This document shows, piece by piece, positions 10,108 through 60,154 of a stretch of DNA of 64,000 nt; positions within the stretch are counted from its first letter, which is position 1; each line of letters begins with the position of its first letter. The notes under the pieces are model-generated. The model made no database searches. It had not been told where the DNA came from and saw nothing but the letters and a program-made list of their open reading frames with translations. Source of the DNA: Eretmocerus hayati (Eukaryota > Arthropoda > Insecta > Hymenoptera > Aphelinidae); contig CM056743.1 in assembly GCA_029851415.1 (NCBI GenBank), positions 78,882,186 through 78,946,185 of the forward strand, written 5' to 3'. Position numbers and translations under genes: made by a program.

Positions 10108-11154
10108 GGTAGTTAAATTACCCCCTAAAAGACGCTCCTGGTGCGAGAAAGTGGGTAAACTCGGTACAACACGACGTTTGTGGGTTCAAACGATAGGTAA
10201 TACCTTCAATGATCGATATTATTAAGAATTATTGTTTAAAAATTGGGGCGCGGTATGAATAAACAATAAAAATATGCATTTTCTGACCTTTTTCTCGGTT
10301 TTTCCACAATAAGTCGGAAAATATCAATTTTTCGAAAAAATTTGTGGAATAACTTTTTGTAGATCTTTGAATCATCTACAAAATTGTTCGGAACACTTTT
10401 CCTCGCAAACTGCTACCCTTTGGAGTTATTCCTCCTCGTATTCCTCATCAAAGTCAAAATCGAATTTGTTTAAACAAATTTGCTGAAATTCTTTATAATG
10501 GGCTCAAACTATTTTTCTAAGATAATTCAGTGAATTTGGAGCAAAAACGATCTCTAGATATTTTTTCCCAAACTTGATCGTTTTTGAGTAATGGGAGTGG
10601 CCAATTCCGCGCCGCGACTTGCCACCCTCAATGCGGCGCTTGCATGAATGCACTTAGGGTTGCAAGTCACGGCGCGGAATCGGCCATTCCCATTACTCGA
10701 AAACGATCAAGTTTAGAAAAAAATATCTAGAGATCTTTTTTGCTCCAAATTCACTGAATTATCTTAGAAAAATAGTTTGAGCTCGTTATAAACAATTTCA
10801 GCGGATTTGTTTAAATAAATTCAATTTTTATCTTGATGAGGAATAACTCCAAAGGGTTGCAGTTTGCGAGGAGAAGTGTTCGAATCAATTTTGTAGATCT
10901 TTCAAAGATCTACAAAAAGTTATTCCACAAAATTTCTCCAAAAAATTGATGTTTTCCGACTTATAGTGGAAAAACGAGAAAAAGGTCAAAAATTCATGTT
11001 TTTATTGTTTATTTATACCGCGCCCCAATTTTTAAACAATAATTCTTGGTAATATCGATTATTGAAGGTGTTACCTATCGTTTGAAGCCACAAAAGTCGT
11101 GTTGTACCGAGTTTAGCCACTTAGTGATCGAATTTCGAGGGTAATTTAACTACC
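10108..11154. mobile_element. palindromic foldback/MITE, ~1.05 kb, TA target
   Basis: Two arms of about 510 bp are inverted copies of each other, with a short centre near 10,630. The ends are perfect inverted repeats starting GGTAGTTAAATTACCC, with TA on both outer sides (10,106-10,107 and 11,155-11,156), as expected for a Tc1/mariner-type TA insertion. Landmarks mirrored in both arms are GGGGCGCGGTAT, TTTTTGTAGATCTTTGA, GCGAGGA and TCTCTAGATATTTTTT. No coding frame is present, so it is non-autonomous. Confidence 0.85.
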
Positions 11155-13981: not shown

Positions 13982-14111
13982 TGCTGCAAACCTATTGTTT
14001 CATCCAAATGTTGTTGAATGTTTCTTCTAGGAATTTGAATGGGTTTCTTGCCTCTCATAACTTCACCTTCATGTGTGTTATGGAGCATATGAACCTCGGA
14101 CTGATTATCTA
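13982..14111 (-). pseudogene. Copia pol, RNase H fragment
   Basis: Minus-strand residues DNQSEVHMLHNTHEG, then RGKKPIQIPRR and IQQHLDETIGLQ, match the Copia RNase H pattern 'DN.SAI.L..N...H.R.KHI....HF'. It is cut at 14,111 by the palindromic element and at 13,982 by foldback A. Its upstream continuation lies at 22,984-23,310. Confidence 0.75.
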
Positions 14112-14121
14112 AGTAGTGGAG

Positions 14122-14220
14122 GAATGGCGCTCCGGGGCCACCGAATGCATGGCGCTCCGAGGCCAATGGCGCTCCGGGGCCAATGGCGCTCCGAGGCCTA
14201 ATGGAGGCATGGCGCTACTG
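14122..14220. repeat. outermost tandem repeats ATGGCGCTCCGRGGCC, left end
   Basis: About five copies of a 16-19 bp GC-rich unit (ATGGCGCTCCGRGGCC) lie within the outermost 100 bp, ending in ATGGAGGCATGGCGCT. The same cluster is mirrored at about 22,878-22,975. Repeated subterminal motifs are commonly transposase or replication-protein binding sites; that role is an inference. Confidence 0.75.
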
Positions 14221-14595
14221 ACACTGCTGATGAATTCCCCCCCCCCCCCCCTTTATGGCACTCCTGGCCCACTGGTCCTTTGTTGTGCTCAATGTTTCAA
14301 GCATACCCGGTTTTAAATATCATTGTACATACAATTACGCGAGTGTAGTGCTAAATATCACCACTATCATTATGTACAATTACGCGAGTGTAGTGCTGAA
14401 TATCACCACCAGATGGCGTCTCGTGGCTCAAACATCGAAGAGAAGTGTGTACGCATCGAAGAGGAGTGTGTACGCATCGATCCAAGTCGATCCAGGCAAC
14501 TACCGTATAGAATAGTTCCGGACGCCACCGCTAGGTGGCGACTGGTTTACCTCGTATGCAAATGAGTTTGCAACCTTCACCTTACATACTTGGGA
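14221..14595 (+). promoter_or_regulatory. upstream region of g1 with paired direct repeats
   Basis: A poly-C run at 14,230-14,242 is followed by two copies of an ACGCGAGTGTAGTGCT unit ending in AATATCACCAC (about 14,337 and 14,381). Two copies of AGTGTGTACGCATCGA follow (about 14,445 and 14,466), then ATGCAAAT at about 14,557. There is no clear TATA box. It is mirrored at 22,505-22,880. Confidence 0.4.
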
Positions 14596-15055
14596 ATGAT
14601 CTTTTCATCGGCATCACTCTGGAAGTCCAGAAAAAAAAAGGTGAGTGATTCCGAAAGGAATGACCCTCCGGATTTAGATTTTCAGTGGCTGTGATTCCGA
14701 AAGGAATCACAGTTTGCGATTCTGAAAAGTATGGCACCCCCAGTGTAACCTCTTCTTTTTCTTTCAGATGGATTACGAAACCGCTGTTCAGAATGGATTC
14801 CAACACGGATATGAAGAGGGTGGGGTTTGGCATCCCTACCCTGAATGCGATTATGTTAATTGCCCCTACTGTAGATATACTTATGGAGGTGCAGAGGTAG
14901 TTGATGCCGAAGATGAGTCGATGGACATAGAGTTTGTTAATGTAGATGAAGATTATGCTTATGATGATGATGACGAGATGGAAATTATATTGGAGTACAT
15001 AGAAGTAGTGGTCAATGATGATGTAGAAATGGTATATGAGAAAATTAGCTTATAA
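14596..15055 (+). CDS. g1 (left copy): spliced acidic CxxC protein, 110 aa
   Basis: Not recognised. Exon 2 (14,768-15,055) encodes 95 residues from MDYETAVQNGF, with CPYCRY (a CxxC pair) at residues 33-38 of the exon, then an Asp/Glu-rich C-terminal half. It is preceded by TTCTTTTTCTTTCAG, a strong acceptor. A GTGAGT donor lies at 14,641. An in-frame exon 1 from ATG 14,596 (15 codons, ending in a Lys run) joins phase 0 across a 127 bp intron (14,641-14,767), giving 110 aa. The alternative is initiation at ATG 14,768 only. AATAAA follows at 15,104-15,109. An identical copy lies in the right arm. Small acidic proteins often act by protein contact, but no function is claimed. Confidence 0.6.
14641..14767 (+). 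other. predicted g1 intron with a palindromic hairpin
   Basis: GTGAGT...TTTCAG boundaries, 127 bp. It contains the perfect hairpin TGATTCCgaaAGGAATCA near 14,691 and a second CGAAAGGAATGA half-copy near 14,656. A regulatory RNA role is possible but unproven. Confidence 0.55.
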
Positions 15056-15103
15056 GATGTATAAATGTATATATGTATAAATGTATATATGTATATACGA
15101 TGG

Positions 15104-15109
15104 AATAAA
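15104..15109 (+). terminator. g1 polyadenylation signal AATAAA
   Basis: AATAAA lies about 50 bp after the g1 stop, following a run of TATATGTATAAATG repeats (15,057-15,097). g1 and g2 converge on this 180 bp interval. Confidence 0.5.
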
Positions 15110-15233
15110 TTGATCAATAAGATCTGGGAGTCGAGAGACTGGAGGAGCCACCAACGAGACTGGCTGGGCTCTACAGGTGGGGGCGTGGTTGGGGCCTCCA
15201 CCTCTCATTTCTTTTTTCATTTGACAACATTCT

Positions 15234-15698
15234 TTATTCCAACCAATCTTCTTCTTCTACAATGCTTATGCCTAATGATTCAATTCGTGAATGCTCCTCC
15301 ATTCCAATTCCATTATCTTTGATAGTTTTCACATAGTTTCTCAATTTAACCAACAGATGTCTCTTCTTCGGGTTTTCTTCATCAATGTAGAAGAATCGGT
15401 CAAAATTTCCTATGATACATTCCGAGCCATATTCACGGAATTGATCGGTGTTGAAATTATAATACAACTCATCTTCAATCCATAAACTATTATCGAGTAT
15501 ATTGTACGAAAGTTCTGCACACTCCATGCACTTCTTACACACACTATTTCCATGATAGAGGTTCACACTGACACTTGTCTCGCCTGGCAGAATTTTGAAA
15601 TCGGCATCATCATCGATTCCTCTGGAAGATGTCATCCTGTTCACCCTCTTCGTTCTTCCGCTCTCATCGAGGAAGTGGATACAGACGTGAAATCCCAT
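15234..15698 (-). CDS. g2 (left copy): 154 aa protein, paralogue of g3
   Basis: Family not recognised. Starts at ATG 15,698, 35 bp after a TATA box. The sequence shows CIHFLDESGRTKR (residues 5-17), LPGE near 36, CKKC near 53, NILDNSLWIEDELYYNF around residues 65-80 and a C-terminal VEEEDWLE. The pattern 'CIHFLDE.G..KR ... LPGE ... CK.C ... D..LW.E...YNF ... VEE.DW' is shared with g3, so they arose by duplication. The stop codon TAA lies inside AATAAA (GGAATAAAG), merging stop and poly(A) signal. No signal peptide or membrane segment. An identical copy is at 21,402-21,866. Confidence 0.75.
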   Translation of the reverse strand: MGFHVCIHFLDESGRTKRVNRMTSSRGIDDDADFKILPGETSVSVNLYHGNSVCKKCMECAELSYNILDNSLWIEDELYYNFNTDQFREYGSECIIGNFDRFFYIDEENPKKRHLLVKLRNYVKTIKDNGIGMEEHSRIESLGISIVEEEDWLE

Positions 15699-15732
15699 GT
15701 CTGGAGTGCTGCCGATGAGCCTGCGGCCTCTG

Positions 15733-15975
15733 TTTTATAGAGCCAAGGCCCGAGCCGCCGACGCCGCAGCTCGAATCTGATTGGCCGTTGCAAGTTCTGA
15801 TAACTCAGCTCCGATTGGCTACTTCAGGTTTCAACATGAAAGCTCTGCGCCGTAGCAAGTTCTGACATGATAACTCAGCTACTTCAGGTTTCAACATGAA
15901 AGCTCTGATTGGCCAATGCAAGTTTCAACGAGTGAGATTGGTGGGGGCCCCAGCCACGCCCCACACCTGTGGAGT
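15733..15975 (-). promoter_or_regulatory. g2 promoter (left): TATA box plus CCAAT boxes
   Basis: On the minus strand a TATAAAA box (15,733-15,739) sits 35 bp before the g2 ATG. Upstream are CCAATCAG-type boxes (near 15,778, 15,815 and 15,910) and CCAATCTC near 15,937, in NF-Y-like consensus. They are interleaved with a duplicated GCTTTCATGTTGAAACCTG element. A GTGGGGCGTGGCTGGGGCC block (15,937-15,970) bounds the promoter and recurs inverted beyond the gene end (15,172-15,205). Confidence 0.65.
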
Positions 15976-16009
15976 GCATCCAATTAATCACTCCTCCATA
16001 AGTGAATGC

Positions 16010-16180
16010 TCACAATAATCTTCGTGATGTTGGTATAGCTCGTGGTCGAGTTGGAATCCTGATCCATGGCTGCCTCTCAACATCCTCCCTGTATCTGATG
16101 ATGGGTTTTGGAAGTCCTCTCGGGAAGATTGGCTCAGGCGTAAACTCCACAATAGGCATTGATGGCATGCGATGATCCAT
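16010..16180 (-). CDS. g6 (left copy): 56 aa Pro/Arg-rich small ORF
   Basis: Mirror of 20,920-21,090. It starts MDHRMPSMPIVEF and continues with Pro- and Arg-rich sequence (FPRGLPKPIIRY, RIPTRPRAIPTS). It lies 31 bp downstream of the g3 stop on the same strand, so it could be the second cistron of g3 mRNA or an exon. It is conserved in both arms, but so is everything there, so that is weak evidence for coding. Product unknown. Confidence 0.35.
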   Translation of the reverse strand: MDHRMPSMPIVEFTPEPIFPRGLPKPIIRYREDVERQPWIRIPTRPRAIPTSRRLL

Positions 16181-16211
16181 GATCCTCAACGGTCGTCTAG
16201 TTTCTAATCCA

Positions 16212-16703
16212 TCAGTGGAATACTTTCCAATCGTCTGAAAATGTTATCCAATCATATTCCTCCACGACTCTGATGTTCATTGACTCCATACGTGGATGGT
16301 CATTCTTGCTTATCCCACACTCATTCATCTTCTCTACACAAGCTTTCAGTTTGCATAGCAGTGGCGTCTCAGGTCGATTCACTTTCATGAGATAAAGATC
16401 TACGTCTGTGATCACAAGTTTCGAATGCTCTTTATAGTAATAGTTGGTGTCAAAATTGTAGAAGAAACGATTCTCCACCCACAGATTTTCATCCACTATG
16501 TTGAAATCTATCCTGGCAGATTCGATGCATTCCTTGCACAACTCTCCGTTATGATGGAAATTTATGCTGATTCCCATTTCACCCGGCAAGAATTTCCAAT
16601 ATTCAGTGATGGTATCATCCCTGCTGCACGGCAGTTTCAGCTTCCTCTTCGACTGCCCATTCTCATCGAGGAAATGTATGCAAGTGTTGTAGTAGAGACC
16701 CAT
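16212..16703 (-). CDS. g3 (left copy): 163 aa protein, paralogue of g2
   Basis: Family not recognised. Starts at ATG 16,703 (MGLYYNTCIHFLDE); the frame is open further upstream, but a TATA box at 16,739-16,745 argues for this start. Shared with g2: CIHFLDENGQSKR, LPGE, CKEC, NIVDENLWVENRFFYNF and VVEEYDW. The two Cys pairs could bind metal or form disulfides. No signal peptide or transmembrane helix. This copy keeps its promoter, unlike the right-arm copy. Confidence 0.75.
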   Translation of the reverse strand: MGLYYNTCIHFLDENGQSKRKLKLPCSRDDTITEYWKFLPGEMGISINFHHNGELCKECIESARIDFNIVDENLWVENRFFYNFDTNYYYKEHSKLVITDVDLYLMKVNRPETPLLCKLKACVEKMNECGISKNDHPRMESMNIRVVEEYDWITFSDDWKVFH

Positions 16704-16738
16704 GGTAGTGCAATGGCAAATGACACAGTGGCTGAGCT

Positions 16739-16745
16739 TTTTATA
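16739..16745 (-). promoter_or_regulatory. g3 TATA box (left copy only)
   Basis: TATAAAA on the minus strand within GCATATAAAAAGCTC, 36 bp before the g3 ATG, which predicts a 5' leader of only a few bases. The corresponding segment is deleted in the right arm. Confidence 0.6.
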
Positions 16746-16876
16746 TGCTTCCGCGCACCGATTCATTGCCACGCATGCTCAAAAGTGCCAGAATGGTGTA
16801 TGACTGTGAATCATTCAGTTCTGGCATCTCGACATCCAGACCCTGGCAACGTTACTGAGACGCCATCATCAGTCCA

Positions 16877-17450
16877 CGTCTATCCCGCGCGGTATTCGTG
16901 CGGTATACGTCTATCCCGCGCGGTATTCGTGCGGTATACGTCTATCCCGCGCGGTATTCGTGCGGTATACGTCTATCCCGCGCGGTATTCGTACGGTATA
17001 CGTCTATCCCGCGCGGTATTCGTACGGTATACGTCTATCCCGCGCGGTATTCGTGCGGTATACGTCTATCCCGCGCGGTATTCGTGCGGTATACGTCTAT
17101 CCCGCGCGGTATTCGTACGGTATACGTCTATCCCGCGCGGTATTCGTGCGGTATACGTCTATCCCGCGCGGTATTCGTGCGGTATACGTCTATCCCGCGC
17201 GGTATTCGTGCGGTATACGTCTATCCCGCGCGGTATTCGTGCGGTATACGTCTATCCCGCGCGGTATACGTCTATCCCGCGCGGTATTCGTGCGGTATAC
17301 GTCTATCCCGCGCGGTATTCGTGCGGTATACGTCTATCCCGCGCGGTATTCGTGCGGTATACGTCTATCCCGCGCGGTATTCGTGCGGTATACGTCTATC
17401 CCGCGCGGTATTCGTGCGGTATACGTCTATCCCGCGCGGTATTCGTGCGG
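16877..17450. repeat. 31 bp tandem array, left (about 18 units plus one 20 bp unit)
   Basis: Units of 31 bp, each with two GCGGTAT cores 14 bp apart, a GTATAC palindrome and GTCTATCCCGCG. One internal unit near 17,250 is shortened to 20 bp, and a few units carry TACGG for TGCGG. Because 31 is not a multiple of 3 and the unit has no stop in any plus-strand frame, long fortuitous frames run through it. It marks the junction between the left arm and the unique centre. Confidence 0.95.
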
Positions 17451-17504
17451 TCTCATGTGGTCTTGCGGCACCGGGCTCTTCTTAGCTCATATCCAGGCTC
17501 TGAA

Positions 17505-18764
17505 TCATCTCCCAGAATCATATTTGGACCAATAGTATTTTCCGGCGTAAGCCCTCTTCTTGATTCCTCGCACATACTTGATCGTTCTGGGTAAGGTCTC
17601 GTACGATGGCAGTCCCAATCGTCCGAATGTTCGACGGGCAACTTCATCCCATGATTCCCTAGGCCTCTCATCTCTCTCATCCGAGCGATCATTGTAGTGC
17701 GAAGTTTCCCACGCATCTGCCTGAGGCAATGGGAATCCCAATAATGTAGGAGGAGGCAATCCAAGTCTTGCAGATCTCCCCCTTTCATAATCATTCGTCG
17801 AGCATCTGTCAAAGTCCAGTCCTCCATTATCGTAAGACTGTTCTACCAGTTCCTGAGTAGAAGCATTGTGAACAGTATTGTACGGATTACTGTTACTTGA
17901 TTCTGAGTCGATATCTGAGTAGGATGACAGATGTGAGTTTGACTCAAATGATGCATTGCTATCACATGATCCTGAGTCAATATCCGGATCGAATGATCGA
18001 CTGCTGTGGTATGAATTTGAACCAAATGATGCATTGCTGCGATATGAATCAGATGATCCCGAATCAACAGATCTCTCTCTGTGACATGATCCAGACTCAA
18101 AATCAGCTTCTGGAGCTCTCGAACTGTCACTCCGTGCATGAAACCGGGGACTGCTGAATGTTGGTTCCCCACTAGTTTCCTTGTTTGGAATAGAATTCTG
18201 CTTACTGGTTGGAGGAATAATAATGTTACCCTGAATTGCTCTCTGTTTCACTGAATCACTATGATTTGTCCGCTCTCTGTCATTATCTCCCAGATCACCA
18301 TGGTTTTCATCCAAGGATGGATGACTTCTGATACAAGGCTGCATCGAAGGAGCCACGGGATGATTGTGAGGATTACTAATACTGACTAAATTCATTCCAT
18401 GAGTAAGTGCTGTACTCGGGCACCGATTGGTTTTATAGTAATCGACGCACTTCCACCGCACTGTACCGTTACGATTGGTTTTCTCTCGGATAAAATGTTT
18501 GCCATCTACAACGAGTTGTTCCTTACCAAGACGGTTTCTGATAAATTTCATCGACCCATTCAATGAACTAGGAGGAGCAGTTTCTTCTGATGTATTTGAT
18601 CCGTACACCTCCAAGTTTTCTCTTCGAGAACCGTCCTGATTTCTCTGCAACTCTTGATCTGTCTCTAGGTTCCCTCCGTGTGAAGACTGCTCACGCAGGA
18701 GCTCCAGTTTCTTCTTTACTGCCATAGCAGCTCGCTCCAAGGCTTCCTCAAAATTTTCACCCAT
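17505..18764 (-). CDS. g4: FLYWCH-type zinc-finger protein, 419 aa
   Basis: FLYWCH fingers are WRKY/GCM1-fold DNA- or protein-binding domains, frequent in MULE transposase relatives and host regulators. From ATG 18,764 the N-terminus (1-30) is a short predicted helix (EEALERAAMAVKKKLELL). The FLYWCH domain spans about 74-135: FIRNRLGKEQLVVDGKHFIR, W104-K-C106, C115, then H133-N-H135, fitting WxC...C...HxH. A long Ser/Asp/Asn-rich region follows (about 190-300), then a basic C-terminus ending YYWSKYDSGR. No MULE transposase core is present. A TATAAATA box lies 53-60 bp upstream of the ATG. It is in the unique centre, the same orientation as g5, and is likely nuclear. A role in copy control or transcription is only a guess. 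Confidence 0.8.
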   Translation of the reverse strand: MGENFEEALERAAMAVKKKLELLREQSSHGGNLETDQELQRNQDGSRRENLEVYGSNTSEETAPPSSLNGSMKFIRNRLGKEQLVVDGKHFIREKTNRNGTVRWKCVDYYKTNRCPSTALTHGMNLVSISNPHNHPVAPSMQPCIRSHPSLDENHGDLGDNDRERTNHSDSVKQRAIQGNIIIPPTSKQNSIPNKETSGEPTFSSPRFHARSDSSRAPEADFESGSCHRERSVDSGSSDSYRSNASFGSNSYHSSRSFDPDIDSGSCDSNASFESNSHLSSYSDIDSESSNSNPYNTVHNASTQELVEQSYDNGGLDFDRCSTNDYERGRSARLGLPPPTLLGFPLPQADAWETSHYNDRSDERDERPRESWDEVARRTFGRLGLPSYETLPRTIKYVRGIKKRAYAGKYYWSKYDSGR

Positions 18765-18816
18765 GTTGACTGGTTTGATGTTCAAGGAATAGTGTCTCTG
18801 TCATCATTATCGTCTG

Positions 18817-18824
18817 TATTTATA
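18817..18824 (-). promoter_or_regulatory. g4 TATA box
   Basis: TATAAATA on the minus strand in GACTATAAATACAG, 53 bp before the g4 ATG at 18,764 and just after the g5 stop (18,851). Confidence 0.55.
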
Positions 18825-18850
18825 GTCAGTCTCCTTCACGAACTCAAGGG

Positions 18851-19681
18851 TCAATAGATATAACCAGCCATGTGTAAGGATTCCAAGATAGCTCTTATCT
18901 CATCATCATGATCTTGATTCCCAGCACCTCTATCATTCATTAGAATCTGAAGTTTTCTAACTAATTGGTTAGGGTTATCCCAGTATATCTCCGTAGTCCT
19001 ACTTGCGAGTGATCCACCAATTTTTCTCGGACCAAATAGCGGTTCGATGATGTTCTTGAATTTTCGACTCTTGCTTCTGCGGAGTTCACCATCATGAAGA
19101 AATCTCTTTCGATGAACATGTGATACGTTCAAAATTTTCTGGTAATTCACAATGTCTTCTTCAGTTATCACTTTCTCATTTGGAACTCTTTTGAAGATCA
19201 ACTCTAGTAGACCAGTGGTGTTTGGGAATCGCTGATTATCAACTAAGATGTGGTCGTTCATAAGTTGTACTCGTGATTTACCGATTCCCAGGAAGTTACC
19301 ATTTTTTCTGACTCCGTACAATTTATCCAGATTCATATCGTCTCTTCTAAGGCTTGCCAAGTAGTCCTCAGGCTCGCTGACTTCATCGTCAGCTGTTTCG
19401 AATGAGGTAGCCGATTGACTCTCGTCTGAAATGGTGTCATTCATCATGGTCTCATCGATTTTAGGTGATTCTCTAACGGTTTCGCCTGATTCCCTCTTTT
19501 GGGTTGTCTCTTGGTAGGCTAGAATTTTCTCTAGCGGATCTGTGATAGGTTTGAATGTGTCTCTCATGTTCTTTTCAAACTCAGCTTGTTGTCGTTTTAC
19601 CAACGCATACTTGCGTTTCAGAGCCTTTCTAGCTCTCATGAGCTTGACTAATGTATCTCTTTGATTGAGAAAGTCCTCCAT
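18851..19681 (-). CDS. g5: 276 aa protein of a repeat-associated family (DUF8207-like)
   Basis: From ATG 19,681 the N-terminal 60 residues are charged and helical (MRARKALKRKYALVKRQQAEFEKN). An acidic linker follows, then a domain with LDKLYGVRKNGNFLGIGKSR, ILVDNQRFPNTTGLLELIF, EDIVNYQKIL and KFKNIIEPLFG. The C-terminus has YWDNPNQLVRKLQIL, GNQDHDDEIRAILESL and GYIY. From memory this order ('YG.R..G..F.IG...', 'Y.GT.GLWELI', 'W..I..P', 'GN..H.NEI.SII.EL...GII') is typical of proteins repeated many times in aphid, hydra and other invertebrate genomes; the DUF8207 label is my recollection. Enzymatic motifs are not seen. The frame stays open upstream into the 31 bp array, but the TATA boxes support ATG 19,681. 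Confidence 0.7.
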   Translation of the reverse strand: MEDFLNQRDTLVKLMRARKALKRKYALVKRQQAEFEKNMRDTFKPITDPLEKILAYQETTQKRESGETVRESPKIDETMMNDTISDESQSATSFETADDEVSEPEDYLASLRRDDMNLDKLYGVRKNGNFLGIGKSRVQLMNDHILVDNQRFPNTTGLLELIFKRVPNEKVITEEDIVNYQKILNVSHVHRKRFLHDGELRRSKSRKFKNIIEPLFGPRKIGGSLASRTTEIYWDNPNQLVRKLQILMNDRGAGNQDHDDEIRAILESLHMAGYIY

Positions 19682-19734
19682 GTCTACAGTTTGATGCAAA
19701 GTTCCGGACTGGGATGCCCTGTGAGAAGTGCCCA

Positions 19735-19832
19735 TTTTATAGCCAGAGCGCGGACCACGCAGAGAGTCTGAAAAAGAGTTTTTATAGCCAGAGCGCGGAC
19801 CACGCAGAGAGTCTGGAAAAGAGTTTTTATAC
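19735..19832 (-). promoter_or_regulatory. triplicated TATA promoter of g5
   Basis: Three TATAAAA boxes on the minus strand at 19,735-19,741, 19,780-19,786 and 19,825-19,831, exactly 45 bp apart. They sit in tandem copies of a unit containing CTCTGCGTGGTCCGCGCTCTGG. The nearest box is 54 bp from the g5 ATG. Two or three tandem core promoters may give alternative starts or higher output. Confidence 0.65.
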
Positions 19833-19852
19833 AGCACGAAGACCGGACATGA

Positions 19853-20377
19853 GACCGCACGAATACCGCGCGGGATAGACGTATACCGCACGAATACCGC
19901 GCGGGATAGACGTATACCGCACGAATACCGCGCGGGATAGACGTATACCGTACGAATACCGCGCGGGATAGACGTATACCGTACGAATACCGCGCGGGAT
20001 AGACGTATACCGCACGAATACCGCGCGGGATAGACGTATACCGCACGAATACCGCGCGGGATAGACGTATACCGCGCGGGATAGACGTATACCGCACGAA
20101 TACCGCGCGGGATAGACGTATACCGCGCGGGATAGACGTATACCGCACGAATACCGCGCGGGATAGACGTATACCGCACGAATACCGCGCGGGATAGACG
20201 TATACCGCACGAATACCGCGCGGGATAGACGTATACCGCGCGGGATAGACGTATACCGCACGAATACCGCGCGGGATAGACGTATACCGCACGAATACCG
20301 CGCGGGATAGACGTATACCGCACGAATACCGCGCGGGATAGAAGTATACCGCACGAATACCGCGCGGGATAGACGTG
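19853..20377. repeat. 31 bp tandem array, right (about 15 units plus three 20 bp units)
   Basis: The same 31 bp unit as at 16,877-17,450, in inverted orientation, with three shortened 20 bp units (near 20,070, 20,120 and 20,240) instead of one. The array abuts the g5 promoter on one side and g3 on the other. Unit number and variant order differ from the left array, so the arrays evolve faster than the rest of the arms. Confidence 0.95.
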
Positions 20378-20396
20378 GACTGATGATGGCGTCTCA

Positions 20397-20888
20397 ATGG
20401 GTCTCTACTACAACACTTGCATACATTTCCTCGATGAGAATGGGCAGTCGAAGAGGAAGCTGAAACTGCCGTGCAGCAGGGATGATACCATCACTGAATA
20501 TTGGAAATTCTTGCCGGGTGAAATGGGAATCAGCATAAATTTCCATCATAACGGAGAGTTGTGCAAGGAATGCATCGAATCTGCCAGGATAGATTTCAAC
20601 ATAGTGGATGAAAATCTGTGGGTGGAGAATCGTTTCTTCTACAATTTTGACACCAACTATTACTATAAAGAGCATTCGAAACTTGTGATCACAGACGTAG
20701 ATCTTTATCTCATGAAAGTGAATCGACCTGAGACGCCACTGCTATGCAAACTGAAAGCTTGTGTAGAGAAGATGAATGAGTGTGGGATAAGCAAGAATGA
20801 CCATCCACGTATGGAGTCAATGAACATCAGAGTCGTGGAGGAATATGATTGGATAACATTTTCAGACGATTGGAAAGTATTCCACTGA
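20397..20888 (+). CDS. g3 (right copy): identical protein, promoter deleted
   Basis: Encodes the same 163 residues as the left copy (MGLYYNTCIHFLDE...). The ATG lies only about 20 bp from the end of the 31 bp array, and the TATA-containing segment present in the left arm is missing. This copy is either silent or driven from within the array. The intact frame with a lost promoter suggests a recent deletion or transfer by gene conversion. Confidence 0.7.
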   Translation: MGLYYNTCIHFLDENGQSKRKLKLPCSRDDTITEYWKFLPGEMGISINFHHNGELCKECIESARIDFNIVDENLWVENRFFYNFDTNYYYKEHSKLVITDVDLYLMKVNRPETPLLCKLKACVEKMNECGISKNDHPRMESMNIRVVEEYDWITFSDDWKVFH

Positions 20889-20919
20889 TGGATTAGAAAC
20901 TAGACGACCGTTGAGGATC

Positions 20920-21090
20920 ATGGATCATCGCATGCCATCAATGCCTATTGTGGAGTTTACGCCTGAGCCAATCTTCCCGAGAGGACTTCCAAAACCCATC
21001 ATCAGATACAGGGAGGATGTTGAGAGGCAGCCATGGATCAGGATTCCAACTCGACCACGAGCTATACCAACATCACGAAGATTATTGTGA
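20920..21090 (+). CDS. g6 (right copy): 56 aa Pro/Arg-rich small ORF
   Basis: ATG 20,920 to TGA 21,088-21,090, 31 bp downstream of the g3 stop on the same strand. The product is rich in Pro and Arg (VEFTPEPIFPRGLPKP, RQPWIRIPTRPR). Unknown; it may be a second cistron or chance. Confidence 0.35.
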   Translation: MDHRMPSMPIVEFTPEPIFPRGLPKPIIRYREDVERQPWIRIPTRPRAIPTSRRLL

Positions 21091-21124
21091 GCATTCACTT
21101 ATGGAGGAGTGATTAATTGGATGC

Positions 21125-21367
21125 ACTCCACAGGTGTGGGGCGTGGCTGGGGCCCCCACCAATCTCACTCGTTGAAACTTGCATTGGCCAATCAGAGCTT
21201 TCATGTTGAAACCTGAAGTAGCTGAGTTATCATGTCAGAACTTGCTACGGCGCAGAGCTTTCATGTTGAAACCTGAAGTAGCCAATCGGAGCTGAGTTAT
21301 CAGAACTTGCAACGGCCAATCAGATTCGAGCTGCGGCGTCGGCGGCTCGGGCCTTGGCTCTATAAAA
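21125..21367 (+). promoter_or_regulatory. g2 promoter (right): CCAAT boxes and TATA box
   Basis: Mirror of 15,733-15,975: CCAATC boxes near 21,160, 21,188, 21,281 and 21,316, duplicated GAGCTTTCATGTTGAAACC, and TATAAAA at 21,361-21,367, 35 bp before the g2 ATG at 21,402. Confidence 0.65.
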
Positions 21368-21401
21368 CAGAGGCCGCAGGCTCATCGGCAGCACTCCAGA
21401 C

Positions 21402-21866
21402 ATGGGATTTCACGTCTGTATCCACTTCCTCGATGAGAGCGGAAGAACGAAGAGGGTGAACAGGATGACATCTTCCAGAGGAATCGATGATGATGCCGAT
21501 TTCAAAATTCTGCCAGGCGAGACAAGTGTCAGTGTGAACCTCTATCATGGAAATAGTGTGTGTAAGAAGTGCATGGAGTGTGCAGAACTTTCGTACAATA
21601 TACTCGATAATAGTTTATGGATTGAAGATGAGTTGTATTATAATTTCAACACCGATCAATTCCGTGAATATGGCTCGGAATGTATCATAGGAAATTTTGA
21701 CCGATTCTTCTACATTGATGAAGAAAACCCGAAGAAGAGACATCTGTTGGTTAAATTGAGAAACTATGTGAAAACTATCAAAGATAATGGAATTGGAATG
21801 GAGGAGCATTCACGAATTGAATCATTAGGCATAAGCATTGTAGAAGAAGAAGATTGGTTGGAATAA
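21402..21866 (+). CDS. g2 (right copy): 154 aa protein
   Basis: Identical product to 15,234-15,698 (MGFHVCIHFLDESG ... VEEEDWLE). It has the same TATA spacing and the same stop-within-AATAAA arrangement (GGAATAAAG at 21,862-21,870). The full promoter is retained, so both g2 copies look expressible. Confidence 0.75.
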   Translation: MGFHVCIHFLDESGRTKRVNRMTSSRGIDDDADFKILPGETSVSVNLYHGNSVCKKCMECAELSYNILDNSLWIEDELYYNFNTDQFREYGSECIIGNFDRFFYIDEENPKKRHLLVKLRNYVKTIKDNGIGMEEHSRIESLGISIVEEEDWLE

Positions 21867-22044
21867 AGAATGTTGTCAAATGAAAAAAGAAATGAGAGGT
21901 GGAGGCCCCAACCACGCCCCCACCTGTAGAGCCCAGCCAGTCTCGTTGGTGGCTCCTCCAGTCTCTCGACTCTCAGATCTTATTGATCAATTTATTCCAT
22001 CGTATATACATATATACATTTATACATATATACATTTATACATC

Positions 22045-22504
22045 TTATAAGCTAATTTTCTCATATACCATTTCTACATCATCATTGACCACTACTTCTA
22101 TGTACTCCAATATAATTTCCATCTCGTCATCATCATCATAAGCATAATCTTCATCTACATTAACAAACTCTATGTCCATCGACTCATCTTCGGCATCAAC
22201 TACCTCTGCACCTCCATAAGTATATCTACAGTAGGGGCAATTAACATAATCGCATTCAGGGTAGGGATGCCAAACCCCACCCTCTTCATATCCGTGTTGG
22301 AATCCATTCTGAACAGCGGTTTCGTAATCCATCTGAAAGAAAAAGAAGAGGTTACACTGGGGGTGCCATACTTTTCAGAATCGCAAACTGTGATTCCTTT
22401 CGGAATCACAGCCACTGAAAATCTAAATCCGGAGGGTCATTCCTTTCGGAATCACTCACCTTTTTTTTTCTGGACTTCCAGAGTGATGCCGATGAAAAGA
22501 TCAT
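22045..22504 (-). CDS. g1 (right copy): spliced acidic CxxC protein
   Basis: Mirror of 14,596-15,055: exon 1 is 22,460-22,504, the intron 22,333-22,459 (GTGAGT...TTTCAG on the minus strand) and exon 2 22,045-22,332. The product is identical to the left copy, and the AATAAA is mirrored at 21,991-21,996. Confidence 0.6.
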
Positions 22505-22877
22505 TCCCAAGTATGTAAGGTGAAGGTTGCAAACTCATTTGCATACGAGGTAAACCAGTCGCCACCTAGCGGTGGCGTCCGGAACTATTCTATACGGTAG
22601 TTGCCTGGATCGACTTGGATCGATGCGTACACACTCCTCTTCGATGCGTACACACTTCTCTTCGATGTTTGAGCCACGAGACGCCATCTGGTGGTGATAT
22701 TCAGCACTACACTCGCGTAATTGTACATAATGATAGTGGTGATATTTAGCACTACACTCGCGTAATTGTATGTACAATGATATTTAAAACCGGGTATGCT
22801 TGAAACATTGAGCACAACAAAGGACCAGTGGGCCAGGAGTGCCATAAAGGGGGGGGGGAATTCATCAGCAGTGTCAG

Positions 22878-22975
22878 TAGCGCCATGCCTCCATTAGGCC
22901 TCGGAGCGCCATTGGCCCCGGAGCGCCATTGGCCTCGGAGCGCCATGCATTCGGTGGCCCCGGAGCGCCATTCCT
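22878..22975. repeat. outermost tandem repeats, right end
   Basis: Inverted copy of the ATGGCGCTCCGRGGCC cluster at 14,122-14,220, within 105 bp of the element's right end. Confidence 0.75.
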
Positions 22976-22983
22976 CCACTACT

Positions 22984-23310
22984 TATCTACTCTGAGAATC
23001 GCTGGACTTCTGATATCTAAGCAACCGAGCTCGTGTCCGATACGACGAATTCAACAAATTTCGTCAAAGGAAGAACGACTCGAATAGTTAACATTGAATA
23101 CGATTTAGGGCGAGAGATCGTAGCTAGACAGTTGAAACTTCCAATAGCTCCGCAATAAGGTACTGAATCACTCACATAGGAATCATTTACCATGTTAGCT
23201 GCATCTGTGATCATACTGCTCTCAATCGGTGTGGGTACAATATAGCTGTTTGCGTATTCAAATATTTCTAGCATCCTTTTTGTGTACTTAGGTTGACTTG
23301 AAAAATTCCA
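22984..23310 (-). pseudogene. Copia pol, RT/RNase H connection fragment
   Basis: Minus-strand residues SQPKYTKRMLEIFEYANSY, VPTPIES, then VPYCGAIGSFNCLATISRP follow the Copia pattern 'Q..Y...LL..F.M....V.TPM....PY..AVGSLMYLA..TRPD'. It is contiguous in frame with 13,982-14,111 once the 8.9 kb element is removed. The remnant is decayed, with the TRPD-type motif changed to SRPK. Confidence 0.7.
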
Positions 23311-30700: not shown

Positions 30701-31307
30701 ATGGCTGCTAGACTTCTCTTCAATCGGCAATTGCAACTTGAGGTTCACATTCGTAATTTTGACACGAATATTGCCAAAAAGGCCGAAGAAAACATTGCTG
30801 TGAACTTTCTCAGAACTCGCTTGGAGTTATGAAAGAGATATTGGGATGAATTTTGCCAAAATGATTTGAATTTACAACAGCACCAAGATGAATTGAAAGA
30901 TGAAGAGTATTCTACTCAATTGGGGTTTTTAGAGATCGGCGAAGATTATTCAATTTTGAAATCCGATTTACTAGATAAGATTGCTGAATTGACGATACCA
31001 GAAGAATCACTGTCTGAACATGGTTCAGTACATGGTTCAGCGCGAGGCTCAGTCCACGCGTCGGTCCATTCAGCCAATCATCCTCAAAATCAAAACTTCT
31101 ACCCATATCAACATTCTCATGCGCAGCAACTTATACGTGCGTCATCGGAATTGCAGTCCATTCCTAGACTCGAACCGCCAGAATTTTCTGGTGAACAAGG
31201 TGATTGGAAATGTTTAAGGAGCGTTTTACATCGGTTATTGGGGGAAAATCCTGATTCATCATCGTCTGCTGAATTGAACCATTCACTCAATGCAGTTGAG
31301 GGCGACG
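30701..31307 (+). pseudogene. BEL/Pao gag, N-terminal half (broken)
   Basis: Gag forms the retrotransposon particle. From ATG 30,701 (MAARLLFNRQLQLEV) it has the helix-rich N-terminus usual for BEL gag, ending in a Ser/His/Gly-rich hinge (EHGSVHGSARGSVH) and LEPPEFSGEQGDWK, the conserved 'L..F.G....W..F' start of the gag core. An in-frame TGA lies at 30,830-30,832, where the family usually has Trp. It is interrupted at 31,307 by the Transib-like element. Confidence 0.7.
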
Positions 31308-34300
31308 CACTATAGTCGTCACATTCCAGCTCTGGCCAAAAATCGCTTCAAAATTTGTTTCAAGCTATCGGGATGAGCCAAACGGCATTCTCTTCGTAAT
31401 CGACAGGGCTAGGAGATGTGCTAATCTGATTTTGTCTCAGACAAAGGGGGCAGGGGTGGGGGGGGGGGGGGGTTGTTGAACGCGAAATGGGGTTGAAGAT
31501 CGATATTTCGACGGAATGAAACTCACGCGTGGCGAGTCAGTAGTTCTACTGCCGATCCGCAACCACTTGGAGTACCTTCTAGAGATAGATGGCAGTATTT
31601 TAAACTCAACCCCAAGTCTGAGAATCACCGCAATCAGCTCTGAGGTCGATTCTGAGCTGAGGAGAGGTATTAAATGCTGCGAATTAATCGATTATACTGG
31701 ATTCTGAGTCGAAAATGATTCTACTGCCAACTCTCAACTCTTTTCAAAACATTCCTCCATCGATTCTCAGAATTTTGAGTCTGGGCACAGCTCTAAGAAT
31801 TGCTGCGGGGAATTTTGAGATCGGTTCAGATTTATTTTGTGGCGGGATTGTCTCTTCAGATCTGAAGGGACATTCGAGATGGTCGATTTTAGCTCAGAAT
31901 GCGATATGTTGCCAGATGAAAAAGACTTTGGGTGTATTTCTAGAGCATTGAACATAATTTTTAGCCTGGTCTCAGGTCTGGGAATTGCCGCAGAGTAATT
32001 TGAGATCAATATTCGTCCAGGAAAGGCTGTCTGGCCGCGCAGACTATTAGAAAAATCGTTATTCCTGGGTGGAGAAAGAGTGTACTGCCGATCTGTAATA
32101 ACTTGGGGTACTTTTTGAGAATGGGAAGCAGTATTTTGAGTTCATCCTCATGTACGGGATCCAACGCAATCAGCTCTGAGGTCGATTCTGAGCCGAGAAA
32201 AGTTGACGAGCCTTGATAATTAGTCGGGAATAGTGAATTCTGGGTCGAATCTAATCCTACTGCCGACTCAGAACCCGTTTCAACACGTTCTCCCATAAAT
32301 TTACAGAATTTTGAGCCGAAACACAGTTCTGGAAATTGCTGAGGGAGGATTTGAGATCGATTCTGATCTATTTTGCGGCTTAAATGTCTGTTGAGATATG
32401 GCAGTCATCGGAGAATGGTCGATTTTACCACAGAATTCGATATGCTGCCAGGTCAGGAACATTTCGAGTGGGATCATAGAACATTTAATAGAATTTTGGG
32501 CCCAATCTCAAGTCTAGAAATTGCCGTAGAAGAATTCCAGATCGATATCCGTCAAGATAAAGCTGCAGAACAGTGCAGATTATTCAAGAAACGGTGAGTT
32601 CTAGGTGACGAATAAATATACTGCCGATCTACAATGACTCGGGGTACATTCTAGGGATGCGAAACAATATTTTGAGCCAAAGCTCAGGTCAGAGAGTCAC
32701 CGCAATCGGTTCTGAGGCCGATTCCAGAGCGAGGAAAAGTGATGAGCGCTGCGTATTCGTCGAAAATAGTGGTTTCTAGATCGGAAACCTCTCTGCTGCT
32801 ACCAGAAGAAGCTTTCTCGTGCATTTTACCATCACTCGCCAGGATTTTAAGCCCAAGCACGGCTCTGAAAATTTCCGTGGACGAGTTTGAAATCGAATTC
32901 GATCTCTTCCGAATCGGGAAAGTCTCATTAGCACAGGTTTCGATCAAGAGTGACCGATTTCAGCTCGGATTTTGATATGCTGCCGAGTCGAACAAACTTT
33001 GATTGAATTCCTCAAGTGCTGATCAGAATTTAGAGCCTAATCCGATGTCGAGAAATTACTGCCGAGAGATTTGAGAACGATATTCGTCCAGAAAAAGCTG
33101 TTCAGTAATGCAGATTGTTTAAGGAATGGTGATTTTTCGGTGAAAAAAAATTATACTGACGATCAAGAAAAACTTGCAGTACATGCGGAAGATGTTAGGC
33201 AATATTTCAAGCCCAACCCCGTGTCTGAGAATCACTGCAATCAGCTCTGGGTTGAGTCTGAGCAACGAAAAAGCAATGGAAGGCGCGTATCAGTCGCGAA
33301 TAATGTTTCATGAGTCGGAGACAGTCCTGCTGCCACCCCAAGAACCTGTTTCATGCATTATACTTTAAATCCTCCGGATTTTGAGCCCAAACACGACTCT
33401 GAGAATAGCCATGGTTGAGTTTGACATCGATCCTGACCCGATTTCCCTGTTCAAAGCGTATCTCCAGTACCAACATGAATCAAATATAACCATTTTAGCT
33501 CGGAAATCGATATGCTGCTGCTTCGAAAACACTTGGAGTGAATCTGTCCAGTATCAAACTGAATTTCGACCTTAATCCATATGCCAGGAATTGCCGCAAG
33601 GAAACTTGGGAACAACATTCGTTCAGGAAAAGCTGTCGAGTAATGCAGATTATTCAAGGAATGATGATTTCTAGGTGGAGAAAAAATATACTGCCGATCT
33701 ACAAATACTTGCACTACATGCGGGAGATAATAGGCAATTTTTCAAGCCTAACCCCGTGTCTGAGAACCACTGCAATCAGCTATGGATTGAGTCTGAGCAA
33801 GGAGAAAGCAGTGAAAGGCGCGTATCAGTCGCGAATAATGTTTCTCAATACAATGTGCGTAAAAGTGCACTTTGCGCACAGTTTGTCGACTTTTACTCAC
33901 AGTTCATCGAAAAGTATAGTTAGATACACGGCCGTAAAACCTATTATTCGCATCCTCGTGATGATTCCGACCCTCGCCTGCGGCTCGGGCCGGAAACCCA
34001 TCACTCGGACGCGAATAAAACGTTTTACGCCCTTGTATCGAAATGTACTATTATAAGTCGGAGACAGTCCTGCTGCCACCCCAAGAACCTGTTTCATGCA
34101 TGATACTTCAAATCCCCCGGATTTTGAGCCCCAACGCGACTCTGAGAACAGCCGTGGTTGAGTTTGACATCGATCCTGATCCGATTTCCCTGTCAGGAGC
34201 GTATCTCAAACACTGGCATAAATCAGAGAGAACCGATTCTAGCTCGAAAATCTATATGCTGCCGCTTCGAAAACACTTGGAGTGAATCTGTCCAGTATAT

Positions 34301-39929: not shown

Positions 39930-42516
39930 CTGGCCCATTCGAATGATTCTTGGGGGAGCAGTAGGACTGTCTCCGACTTATAATCCATTATTCGAGATTG
40001 ATACGCACCATCCACCGTTTTTCCTTTGCTCAGACTCAATCCAGAGCTGATTGCAGTGATCCTCAGACACGTAGTTAGGCTTGAAATATCGCTTAACGTT
40101 TTCCGCATGTAGTGCAAGTATTTGTAGATCGGCAGTATATTTTTTCTCCACCTAGAAATCACCATTCCTTGAATAATCTGCATTACTCGACAGCTTTTCC
40201 TGGACAAATGTTGTTCCCAAATTTTTTTGCGGCAATTTCTGGCCCACGGATTAAGGTCAAATTTCAGCTAAATACTGGACAGATTCACTCCAAGTGTTTT
40301 CGAAGCGGCAGCATATAGATTTTCGGGCTAGAATCGGTTATCTCTGATTTATGCCGGTGTTTGAGATACGCTCCTGACAGGGAAATCGGATCAGAATCGA
40401 TGTCAAACTCAACCACGGCTGTTCTCAGAGTCGCGTTTGGGCTCAAAATCCGGAGGATTTAAAGTATAATGCATGAAAGGTTCTTGGGGTGGCAGCAGGA
40501 CTGTCTCCGACTTATGAAACATTATTCGCGACTGATACGCGCCTTTCATTGCTTCTTCGTTGCTCAGACTCAACCCAGAGCTGATTGCAGTGATTCTCAG
40601 ACACGGGGTTGGGCTTGAAATATTGCCTAACATCTTCCGCATGTACTGCAAGTTTTTCTTGATCGGCAGTATAATTTTTTCTCACCGAAAAATCACCATT
40701 CCTTGAATAATCTGCATTACTGAACAGCTTTTTCTGGACGAATATCGTTCTCAAATCTCTCGGCAGTAATTTCTCGACATCGGATTAGGCTCTAAATTCT
40801 GATCAGCACTTGAGGAATTCAATCAAAGTTTGTTCGACTCGGCAGCATATCAAAATCCGAGCTGAAATCGGTCACTCTTGATCGAAACCTGTGCTAATGA
40901 GACTTTCCCGACTCGGAAGAGATCGAATTCGATTTCAAACTCGTCCACGGAAATTTTCAGAGTCGTGCTTGGGCTCAAAATCCTGATGAGTGATGGTAAA
41001 ATGCACGAGAAAGCTTCTTCTGGTAGCAGCAGAGAGGTTTCCGAACTAGAAACCACTATTTTCGACGAATACGCAGCGCTCATCACTTTTCCTCGCTCTG
41101 GAATCGGACTCAGAACCGATTGCGGTGACTCTCTGACCTGAGCTTTGGCTCAAAATATTGTTTCGCATCCCTAGAATGTACCCGGAGTCATTGGAGATCG
41201 GCAGTATATTTATTCATCACCCAGAACTCACCGTTTCTTGAATAATCTGCACTGTTCTGCAGCTTTTCCTTGACGAATATCGATCTGGAATCCTTCTACG
41301 GCAATTTCGGGACTTGAGATTGGGCTCAAAATTCTATTAAATGTTCTATGATCCCACTCGAGATGTTCCTGACCTGGCAGCATATCGAATTCTGTGGTAA
41401 AATCGACCATTCTTGGATGACTGCCATATCTCAACAGACATTTCAGCCGCAAAATAGATCAGAATCGATCTCAAATCCTCCCTCAGCAATTTTCAGAACT
41501 GTGTTTCGGCTCAAAATTCTGTAAATTTATGGGAGAATGTGTTGAAACGGGTTCTGAGTCGGCAGTAGGATTAGATTCGACCCAGAATTCACTATTCCCG
41601 ACTAATTATCAAGGTTCGTCAACTTTTCTCGGCTCAGAATCGACCTTAGAGCTGATTGCGTTGGATCCCGTACATGAGGATGAACTCAAAATACTGCTTC
41701 CCACTCTCAAAAAGTACCCCAATTTATTACAGATCGGCAGTACACTCTTTCTCCACCTAGAAATAACGATTTTTCTAATATTCTGCGCGGCCAGACAGCC
41801 TTTCCTGGACGAATATTGATCTCAAATTACTCTGCGGCAATTCCCAGACCTGAGACCAGGCTAAAAATTATGTTTAATGCTCTAGAAATACACCCAAAGT
41901 CTTTTTGATCTGGCAGCATATCGCATTCTGAGCTAAAATCGACCATCTCGAATGTCCCTTCAGATCTGAAGAGACAATCCCGCCACAAAATAAATCTGAA
42001 CCGATCTCAAAATTCCCCGCAGCAATTCTTAGAGCTGTGCCCAGACTCAAAATTCTGAGAATCGATGGAGGAATGTTTTGGAAAGAGTTGAGAGTTGGCA
42101 GTAGAATCATTTTCGACTCAGAATCCAGTATAATCGATTAATTCGCAGCATTTAATACCTCTCCTCAGCTCAGAATCGACCTCAGAGCTGATTGCGGTGA
42201 TTCTCAGACTTGGGGTTGAGTTTAAAATACTGCCATCTATCTCTAGAAGGTACTCCAAGTGGTTGCGGATCGGCAGTAGAACTACTGACTCGCCACGCGT
42301 GAGTTTCATTCCGTCGAAATATCGATCTTCAACCCCATTTCGCGTTCAACAACCCCCCCCCCCCCCACCCCTGCCCCCTTTGTCTGAGACAAAATCAGAT
42401 TAGCACATCTCCTAGCCCTGTCGATTACGAAGAGAATGCCGTTTGGCTCATCCCGATAGCTTGAAACAAATTTTGAAGCGATTTTTGGCCAGAGCTGGAA
42501 TGTGACGACTATAGTG
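39930..42516. repeat. right arm of Transib-like palindrome
   Basis: Inverse copy of the left arm, 745 bp shorter because it has one rather than two copies of a 745 bp unit. Deduced peptides of the outer 2 kb are nearly identical in both arms, so the arms are homogenised or young. A poly-C run (42,353-42,366) mirrors the left poly-G run. Confidence 0.85.
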
Positions 42517-43288
42517 CGACGCAGAGGAAATGATGAAAGGCGTCAAAACACGTACTACAAGTTTTTTGATTGCTTGGAACAAATTATGTCGACGTTACGA
42601 TAACTCTCGGTTGAGATTGAGCACGCACTTGAACAAATTGATAGTTTTAGCCCCAATCACCAAAAAATCCGCTCAAGCTCTTGTTACAATGATGAACTAA
42701 GCAAAAGAATCTATCCAAGGCCTCCGAGATCTAGAGTGTCCCGTGGATGGATGGAATTGTTGGCTCGTTCATTTAATTGTTCGAAAATTGGATACGGGTA
42801 CCAGAGGAAGTTGACTTATTGTACAAGAAAATGTTGAGGGTTTTTCGACGTATGCTGCTTCATCTAATTTTTTGGAAAATCGTATTCAATCGGTGAACGC
42901 AGCTCATTCAAGGTCTGTAGCGACAAATGAATCGAAGCCTGGTTCGTCGTCTGCTGGAAGATAACAAGGCAATTGTAGTAGAAGGATTGTAAATTCAAAT
43001 CTTGGAAATTCACGGAATAATGAGGGTCAGTCTAGCAGTCCACTCATGTGTATAAATTGTAAAGGTGATCATGCATTGCACAAATGTGAGAAGTTTTCAT
43101 CGCTGTCTGTGCACCAAAGATTTGAATTTTGCAAAGCAAATCGTTCATGTATAAATTGTTTGAAGCCTGGTCATTATGCTGATAAATGTGGTTCTCAGTA
43201 TAAGTGTAGTAAGTGTAAACGGCTACATCATACGAATCTGCATATGGATTTTTCGGGTGCTTCTAAGCCAGAAGATCCTCAAAATTAA
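42517..43288 (+). pseudogene. BEL/Pao gag, C-terminal half with zinc knuckles
   Basis: It continues the gag core (SFLIAWNKLCRRYDN, a conserved BEL gag stretch) with stops near 42,698 and 42,822. Then come three nucleic-acid-binding knuckles at 43,049-43,230: CINCKGDHALHKC, CINCLKPGHYADKC and CSKCKRLHHTNLH (Cx2Cx4Hx3-4C, the last CCHH). Three knuckles of this form are typical of BEL/Pao. Confidence 0.75.
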
Positions 43289-45707: not shown

Positions 45708-45878
45708 TGCAACGTCTGCAATTTTCAGATAATTTTAAAAATTTTAGAAATAAGAATTTTCAGTCAGCCACTTGGGCAGATGACCATCAGACCAGTCGTG
45801 TAAGTAGAATCATATTTGGTGGTGTCGGTAAAACTAATACTAACCCGTATATGCTTGCAATTTTGTGTATTAACCACC

Positions 45879-45915
<37 letters not shown>

Positions 45916-50624: not shown

Positions 50625-50795
50625 TGCAACGTCTGCAATTTTCAGATAATTTTAAAAATTTTAGAAATAAGAATTTTCAGTCAGCCACTTGGGCAGATGA
50701 CCATCAGACCAGTCGTGTAAGTAGAATCATATTTGGTGGTGTCGGTAAAACTAATACTAACCCGTATATGCTTGCAATTTTGTGTATTAACCACC

Positions 50796-50834
<39 letters not shown>

Positions 50835-59020: not shown

Positions 59021-59022
59021 TA

Positions 59023-60152: not shown

Positions 60153-60154
60153 TA

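Follow-up and report, generated by a model that had tools for sequence, protein, structure and literature searches.

A probable non-autonomous satellite lineage of Maverick/Polinton elements with its own DUF8207–FLYWCH gene cassette in Eretmocerus hayati

Mavericks (Polintons) are described, in the accessible portion of one account, as self-replicating, virus-like elements (PMC6431247). For intact vertebrate Mavericks, the available passages of another study report (AGT)2//(ACT)2 as the commonest ends, a 6-bp target-site duplication (TSD), terminal inverted repeats (TIRs) of 46–1,447 bp and sizes of 12.7–24.6 kb (PMC8097293). We analysed a 64,000-nucleotide stretch of the Eretmocerus hayati genome (assembly GCA_029851415.1, contig CM056743.1, positions 78,882,186 to 78,946,185 of the forward strand; hereafter the window, with positions counted from its first letter), which contains an 8,872-bp insertion at 14112–22983. 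By its ends and TSD this element is a Maverick-type insertion, but its gene set does not qualify it as an autonomous Maverick. It is very likely a copy of a non-autonomous Maverick/Polinton satellite lineage that has Maverick ends, arm genes and a DUF8207–FLYWCH cassette of its own, and that is without PolB, integrase, ATPase and capsid genes.

The insertion lies between two copies of TATCTA (14106–14111 and 22984–22989); it begins with AGTAGTGG at 14112 and finishes with CCACTACT at 22983, the left arm starting with AGTAGTGGAG and the right arm ending with CTCCACTACT, so that the inverted ends (AGTAGT/ACTACT) are of the (AGT)2 or (AG)3 type. A scan of TSD lengths from 4 to 11 gave a match at 6 bp only, and by simple arithmetic the chance of a 6-bp match at ends already fixed by the arms is about 1/4096. 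When the flanks are joined with a single TATCTA, a minus-strand Copia RNase H frame with the motif RVDNQS is regained. An earlier note, made from the letters alone, had proposed an 8.9-kb insertion with AG/CT ends and a 6-bp TATCTA duplication, whose excision restores this motif; coordinates, ends, duplication and empty site were all confirmed. The note had overlooked the gene-bearing long arms, the DUF8207–FLYWCH cassette and the multicopy non-autonomous lineage. The features are as follows (C1:106.9 and C1:203.3 are Mavericks of the same genome).

14106..14111, no strand: left TSD TATCTA, identical 6 bp at both flanks
14112..16703, plus strand: left terminal inverted arm, 2,592 bp, 99.77% identical to the right arm
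14768..15052, plus strand: p95, left copy, 95 amino acids, with a 98.9% amino-acid-identical copy in C1:203.3
15234..15698, minus strand: p154, left copy, 154 amino acids, 100% amino-acid identity in C1:106.9 and C1:203.3
16212..16703, minus strand: p163, left copy, a paralogue of p154 (39% identity)
16704..16855, no strand: 152 bp found in the left arm only, between p163 and the satellite
16876..17451, no strand: 31-bp satellite array, left
17505..18785, minus strand: FLYWCH zinc-finger gene, 426 amino acids (PF04500, E = 1.3e-13)
18851..19735, minus strand: DUF8207 gene, 294 amino acids from the ATG at 19735; its relatives P0001 and P0002 carry PF26634
19735..19831, no strand: 45-bp tandem repeat upstream of the DUF8207 gene
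19854..20376, no strand: 31-bp satellite array, right, inverted relative to the left
20397..20888, plus strand: p163, right copy, a paralogue of p154 (39% identity)
20397..22983, minus strand: right terminal inverted arm, 2,587 bp, 99.77% identical to the left arm
21402..21866, plus strand: p154, right copy, 100% amino-acid identity in C1:106.9 and C1:203.3
22048..22332, minus strand: p95, right copy
22984..22989, no strand: right TSD TATCTA, identical 6 bp at both flanks

From the outside inward, the element consists of the arms, which are alike except for a single substitution and a C run of unequal length, the two 31-bp satellite arrays, which are inverted to each other, differ in their units and terminate at a common short inner flank, and a 2.4-kb unique centre with two genes on the same strand, DUF8207 first and then FLYWCH. 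A splice-acceptor-like tract, read by eye, lies directly 5' of the ATG of the left p95 copy. A six-frame Pfam search of the element (E ≤ 0.01) revealed nothing beyond the two centre genes. That the element carries none of the Polinton core genes, as the note had stated, held in this search and in tblastn with the Maverick proteins of the genome: neither a protein-primed PolB nor an rve-type integrase, and no double-jelly-roll capsid, packaging ATPase or minor capsid protein, was detected. Yet the element has genes known from Mavericks of the same genome, namely a DUF8207 gene at 37–40% identity, p154, which is 100% identical in each of the two Mavericks compared, and p95, for which these two give 99% and 43%.

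The element thus resembles Mavericks in its (AGT)2//(ACT)2 ends, its 6-bp TSD and its terminal inverted repeats, and shares with those of its own genome arm DNA, p154, p95 and a DUF8207 gene. It differs from them in having no PolB, integrase, ATPase or capsid genes and in having a FLYWCH gene of its own. Compared with the vertebrate values in the available passages of PMC8097293, the gene-bearing copies of the family described below are shorter (5.3–8.9 kb vs. 12.7–24.6 kb), and the single-block arms of 8 of the 11 gene-bearing copies are longer (1.5–3.0 kb vs. TIRs of 46–1,447 bp).

We searched the 692-Mb genome from which the window comes for elements with the same ends. The outer 300 bp had at least 62 matches (40 of 81 candidates were scored), and both ends were resolved in 18 elements, ours included. 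All 18 have a 6-bp TSD (ours and 17 of 17 others); 17 begin with AGTAGTGGAG and a diverged one with AGTAG. To place an end we relied on homology to our end, on the inverted repeat of the element concerned or on the AGTAGTGG motif, and elements with only one end found were excluded. Seven elements were resolved by script and 11 were read by eye; of the by-eye TSDs, five were rechecked by a script allowing any length, and six by a script that itself demands a 6-bp match. The target sequences have no fixed motif, with A at position 2 in 10 of 18. The same ends and 6-bp TSDs in other copies, and Polintons with these ends (three with integrase and capsid, two of them also with PolB sequence), were what the note had suggested looking for, and together they support its proposal of Polinton/Maverick-type integration. 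One further element with the same ends, C1:60230285-60249347 (L022, L032-L034, L023; hereafter C1:60.2), is 19,063 bp long with TSD TTCATA. One of its open frames, 1,253 or more amino acids long, has hAT-dimerisation and Ulp1-protease matches and is perhaps a nested element.

The insertion might instead be a cut-and-paste DNA transposon of another superfamily whose duplications are by coincidence also 6 bp long. Long inverted repeats and a FLYWCH domain would suit such a transposon, and FLYWCH is found in other mobile proteins too. However, the six-frame Pfam search detected no DDE transposase of another superfamily in the element, and the AGTAGT ends, the 6-bp TSD and arm DNA at 97.5% identity are common to integrase- and capsid-bearing Mavericks, which makes this origin highly improbable. 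A Ginger DNA transposon was ruled out by the 6-bp TSD and AGTAGT ends; Ginger elements have TSDs of 4–5 bp and TGTNR ends according to the accessible part of PMC2836005.

The three resolved elements with integrase and capsid (16.4–18.0 kb) are candidate helpers. C1:106.9 (C1:106892886-106910926; L020, L029-L031, L021; 18,041 bp, TSD GAGAGG) encodes a double-jelly-roll capsid (E 8e-106), PLA2/Adeno_PX, an A32-type ATPase, an rve+chromo integrase, a DUF8207 gene directly behind the ATPase, p154 (100% to ours) and p95 (43%). It has inverted arms of about 6.3 kb with a doubled capsid gene (the right arm being covered in part). In the pieces examined, the 419-amino-acid frame that adjoins PolB in C1:203.3 was present and the PolB stretch and the 539-amino-acid frame were not found, which looks as though a copy of the opposite arm had taken the place of the polymerase side. 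C1:203.3 (C1:203329557-203345928; L036, L035, L056; 16,372 bp, TSD TGCCTT) has PolB sequence (E 3e-10) adjoining frames of 539 and 419 amino acids, together with integrase, capsid, ATPase, PLA2/PX, p154 (100%) and p95 (99%). Its arm DNA matches our arm at 97.5% identity along 1.28 kb. The left end of C1:203.3 is an inverted 99.9% copy (1.35 kb, one block) of part of its right arm, including a 188-amino-acid frame and part of the capsid gene. In C2:37.75 (17,731 bp, TSD CAGAAT) we found PolB sequence and integrase, with a capsid match within its span, and C3:38.82 (L039), in which only one end was found, has PolB, integrase and the same two neighbour frames. Our element shares DNA with co-resident autonomous-type Mavericks, C1:203.3 and C1:106.9 having in common with it the ends, subterminal DNA and p154. 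Across the genome we identified at least 167 PolB matches (73 of 944 candidates scored). Capsid matches number at least 126 (126 of 909 candidates scored), and for both proteins many of the matches are full-size open frames.

Thirteen elements were read whole: ours, ten of 5.3–8.5 kb and two palindromes of 1.6–1.7 kb. Nine Maverick proteins matched none of the 13 by tblastn, and five Maverick control pieces were positive; these controls were the proteins' own or sister loci, and a very diverged core gene could escape such a search. Both cassette genes are full in 9 of the 13, and p163 is full-length in both arms in 9 and partial in one more, with a stop in one of the 18 full-length p163 copies (L062). 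The gaps in the set are the absence of FLYWCH from L062, DUF8207 present only as fragments in L063, and the absence of all set genes from the palindromes. Of the 11 gene-bearing elements, 8 have an outermost inverted block of 1.5–3.0 kb, and L057 and L062 have p163 in both arms despite a short outermost block.

Genome-wide, DUF8207 had at least 135 matches (133 of 876 candidates scored) and FLYWCH at least 101 (98 of 125 scored). Comparison of DUF8207 loci with matches longer than 750 bp (28 of the 135, being shorter, were excluded, and one 50% match falls in neither class) shows FLYWCH next in line, no more than 500 bp away, at 56 of the 59 loci whose identity to ours is 55% or more and at none of the 47 whose identity is 44% or less. 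Capsid genes were scored no more than 10 kb away at 0 of the 59 and 31 of the 47; with 126 of 909 capsid candidates scored, both figures are minima. At 4 of the 47 Maverick-type loci, two or more scored capsid matches lie within 10 kb.

Arms within an element differ by 0–2 mismatches over 820–1,015 bp (9 of 9 elements), and arms of different elements have a mean identity of 98.99% (144 comparisons). Assembly errors are known at long inverted repeats, and the arms could in principle be artefacts of this kind. Against this, long arms or paired arm genes occur in 9 of 10 gene-bearing relatives (all except L059), these relatives stand at separate sites, each with its own TSD and with differing satellite counts, and the diverged lineage described below has long arms too; the probability of an artefact is negligible. 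In the two palindromes (C4:83508379-83509973 and C1:200701522-200703191; L019, L028), which have 6-bp TSDs and the ends of Mavericks, the centre consists of 11 and 123 bases unmatched to the Maverick arm. They look like the simplest product of arm copying, in which some 0.8 kb of a Maverick end was folded back on itself, and resemble miniature snap-back forms.

The diverged element, C4:120.99, is 11,236 bp long, has ends AGTAGCC/GGCTACT and TSD ACGTTG, and encodes DUF8207 and FLYWCH proteins that are 67% and 37% (44% in the genome search) identical to ours. Its arms agree at 99.3% over 2,573 bp and at 99.7% over 691 bp and include a p163-like end piece (57%), and its own version of the satellite stands on both sides; in pieces spanning the element, tblastn matched none of the nine Maverick proteins. 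The arms of the diverged satellite (L069:1000-2700 and L070) contain another tandem repeat, of about 117 bp, which continues into the p163-like frame. A further relative, L068, has a DUF8207 gene at 71% and a FLYWCH gene at 50% identity; in the genome searches each of the two matches contains one stop, and the stop in DUF8207 falls outside the 277-codon open frame used below. As judged from the diverged relative, which repeats the architecture, the lineage is old rather than a single accident.

We further estimated nonsynonymous and synonymous divergence (dN/dS, NG86 method). Three comparisons of DUF8207 gave 0.154/0.848, 0.208/2.1 and 0.203/1.168, i.e., ratios of 0.10–0.18, the larger dS values being near saturation, and FLYWCH gave 0.333/0.872. 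DUF8207 is thus clearly under selective constraint between lineages. In young copies, the variable codons of p163 show 10 silent and 4 replacement differences (18 copies) and those of p154 show 2 and 3 (6 copies); within the young subfamily, p163 is the only gene for which constraint is suggested.

Several observations weigh against a maintained satellite family with a working helper. The variable codons of young copies show 1 silent and 6 replacement differences in DUF8207 (8 ungapped copies) and 1 and 5 in FLYWCH (9 copies); neither gene has a silent excess that would point to current function in the subfamily. A stop interrupts one of the nine young FLYWCH copies and the FLYWCH matches of both diverged relatives (C4:120.99 and L068). 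The outermost inverted block is only 135–251 bp in 3 of the 11 gene-bearing elements (L057, L059 and L062), and L059 has no p163. In C1:203.3 and C2:37.75, PolB and its neighbours are split over several frames, so that neither element demonstrates an active helper with precisely these ends, although other PolB frames, of 1,300–1,550 amino acids, are open in the genome. C1:60.2, despite its ends, matched no Maverick or satellite protein in the pieces examined. Finally, no movement, expression or extrachromosomal form has been observed.

These elements could instead be merely defective Mavericks, i.e., products of internal deletion and arm duplication that were recently amplified in trans and whose genes are passengers. 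The near identity of the young copies and the predominance of replacements among their DUF8207 and FLYWCH differences fit this explanation, and the palindromes and the arm-duplicated Maverick show that such products arise. However, a lineage whose DUF8207 has diverged from ours by a dS of about 2 has the same cassette, long arms and satellites, DUF8207 has low dN/dS in all three comparisons, and the gene pair is kept at nearly all loci of its class (56 of 59); we consider it unlikely that the elements are defective Mavericks and nothing more. A long-lived satellite family that depends on Mavericks as helpers is the best reading of the data.

Searches with the encoded proteins identified few relatives. 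In the protein collection, two distant DUF8207 proteins (P0001 and P0002) matched, no relative of p163 or p154 was found, and the satellite-bearing frame used as a query gave no match. IMG/VR viral contigs contained no confirmed relative of the DUF8207 protein or of p163/p154, nor did the end sequence match exactly in them, and phage records gave none. Pfam at E ≤ 1 returned only weak matches below the cut-off for the DUF8207 frame; since P0001 and P0002 likewise drew no DUF8207 match, the copy of Pfam used presumably does not include PF26634, which we take to be DUF8207. A PDB search with the FLYWCH protein found no match. The structure models are poor (pLDDT 52 and 53). The low-confidence model of the DUF8207 protein has a long predicted helix near the N terminus, and in Foldseek it had one viral match at E ≤ 0.001, R9XLH4, a Cotesia sesamiae bracovirus protein named DUF8207. 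Maverick genes with neither terminal repeats nor a coiled-coil gene adjoin a bracovirus locus, according to the accessible part of PMC2646287. Because of the helix predicted in that model, the DUF8207 protein might be a candidate for this coiled-coil protein, which is a guess only.

Elsewhere in the window, direct repeats of 1.9 kb (45708-47610 and 50625-52529; 99.8% identical) are perhaps the long terminal repeats of a young BEL-like retrotransposon, and the frame at 44643-45803 was read by eye only. Further direct repeats of 2.5 kb (31302-33840 and 39986-42522) are 96% identical, with internal copies at 72%, and imperfect palindromes of about 1 kb lie at 10149-11122 and 59021-60157 (88% and 82% self-complementary).

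The satellite family probably moves with machinery borrowed from full Mavericks of the same genome. In trans, a Maverick PolB would replicate the satellite from its ends and a Maverick integrase would insert it. During replication one arm may be renewed from the other, which would fit the near identity of arms within elements compared with between them; recent insertion alone may explain much of this. The giant arms could have arisen when one Maverick end was copied onto the other, with loss of the core genes, either by snap-back copying or by recombination between inverted satellite arrays, which is an equal alternative because both arrays end on the same short inner flank. The DUF8207 and FLYWCH proteins would serve the satellite itself, perhaps by taking part in replication or packaging or by controlling the helper. 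More tentatively, the family may be a true satellite of an endogenous animal virus: a Maverick without capsid or polymerase that has persisted for long at the expense of other Mavericks, travels inside their particles and employs DUF8207 and FLYWCH to favour itself or restrain its helper.

With satellite viruses, virophages and snap-back defective genomes, a comparison for which adeno-associated virus (AAV) is reportedly an example, the element has analogies in its shortness, its retained ends, its apparent helper-dependent logic and its inverted-duplicated forms. Unlike them, it has no sequence membership in any of these groups, and its packaging is only hypothetical; virophages, moreover, have a capsid gene of their own, and the satellite has none. 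The viral match of the low-confidence DUF8207 model suggests a likeness to bracovirus-linked Maverick remnants, but those genes stand next to a proviral locus and have no terminal repeats, as far as the available text of PMC2646287 indicates, whereas ours is a mobile element with complete ends. The element is best filed as a non-autonomous Maverick derivative, one that would work like a satellite. We found no description of such elements in the open-licence literature, and an earlier description elsewhere (subscription papers, Repbase) is possible; the accessible parts of the Adintovirus and Hessian-fly Maverick papers (PMC8363768, PMC8504770) have no bearing on the satellite.

Taken together, this genome contains two or more diverged lineages of presumed Maverick dependants that have a cassette in common, beside many open Maverick polymerase and capsid frames. 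If they were moved by borrowing, they would offer an animal model of intragenomic conflict between satellite and helper, the parts that they share with Mavericks would point to the cis signals of Maverick replication and integration, and the presence in the satellite centre of DUF8207, an unexplained Maverick gene, would hint at its role.

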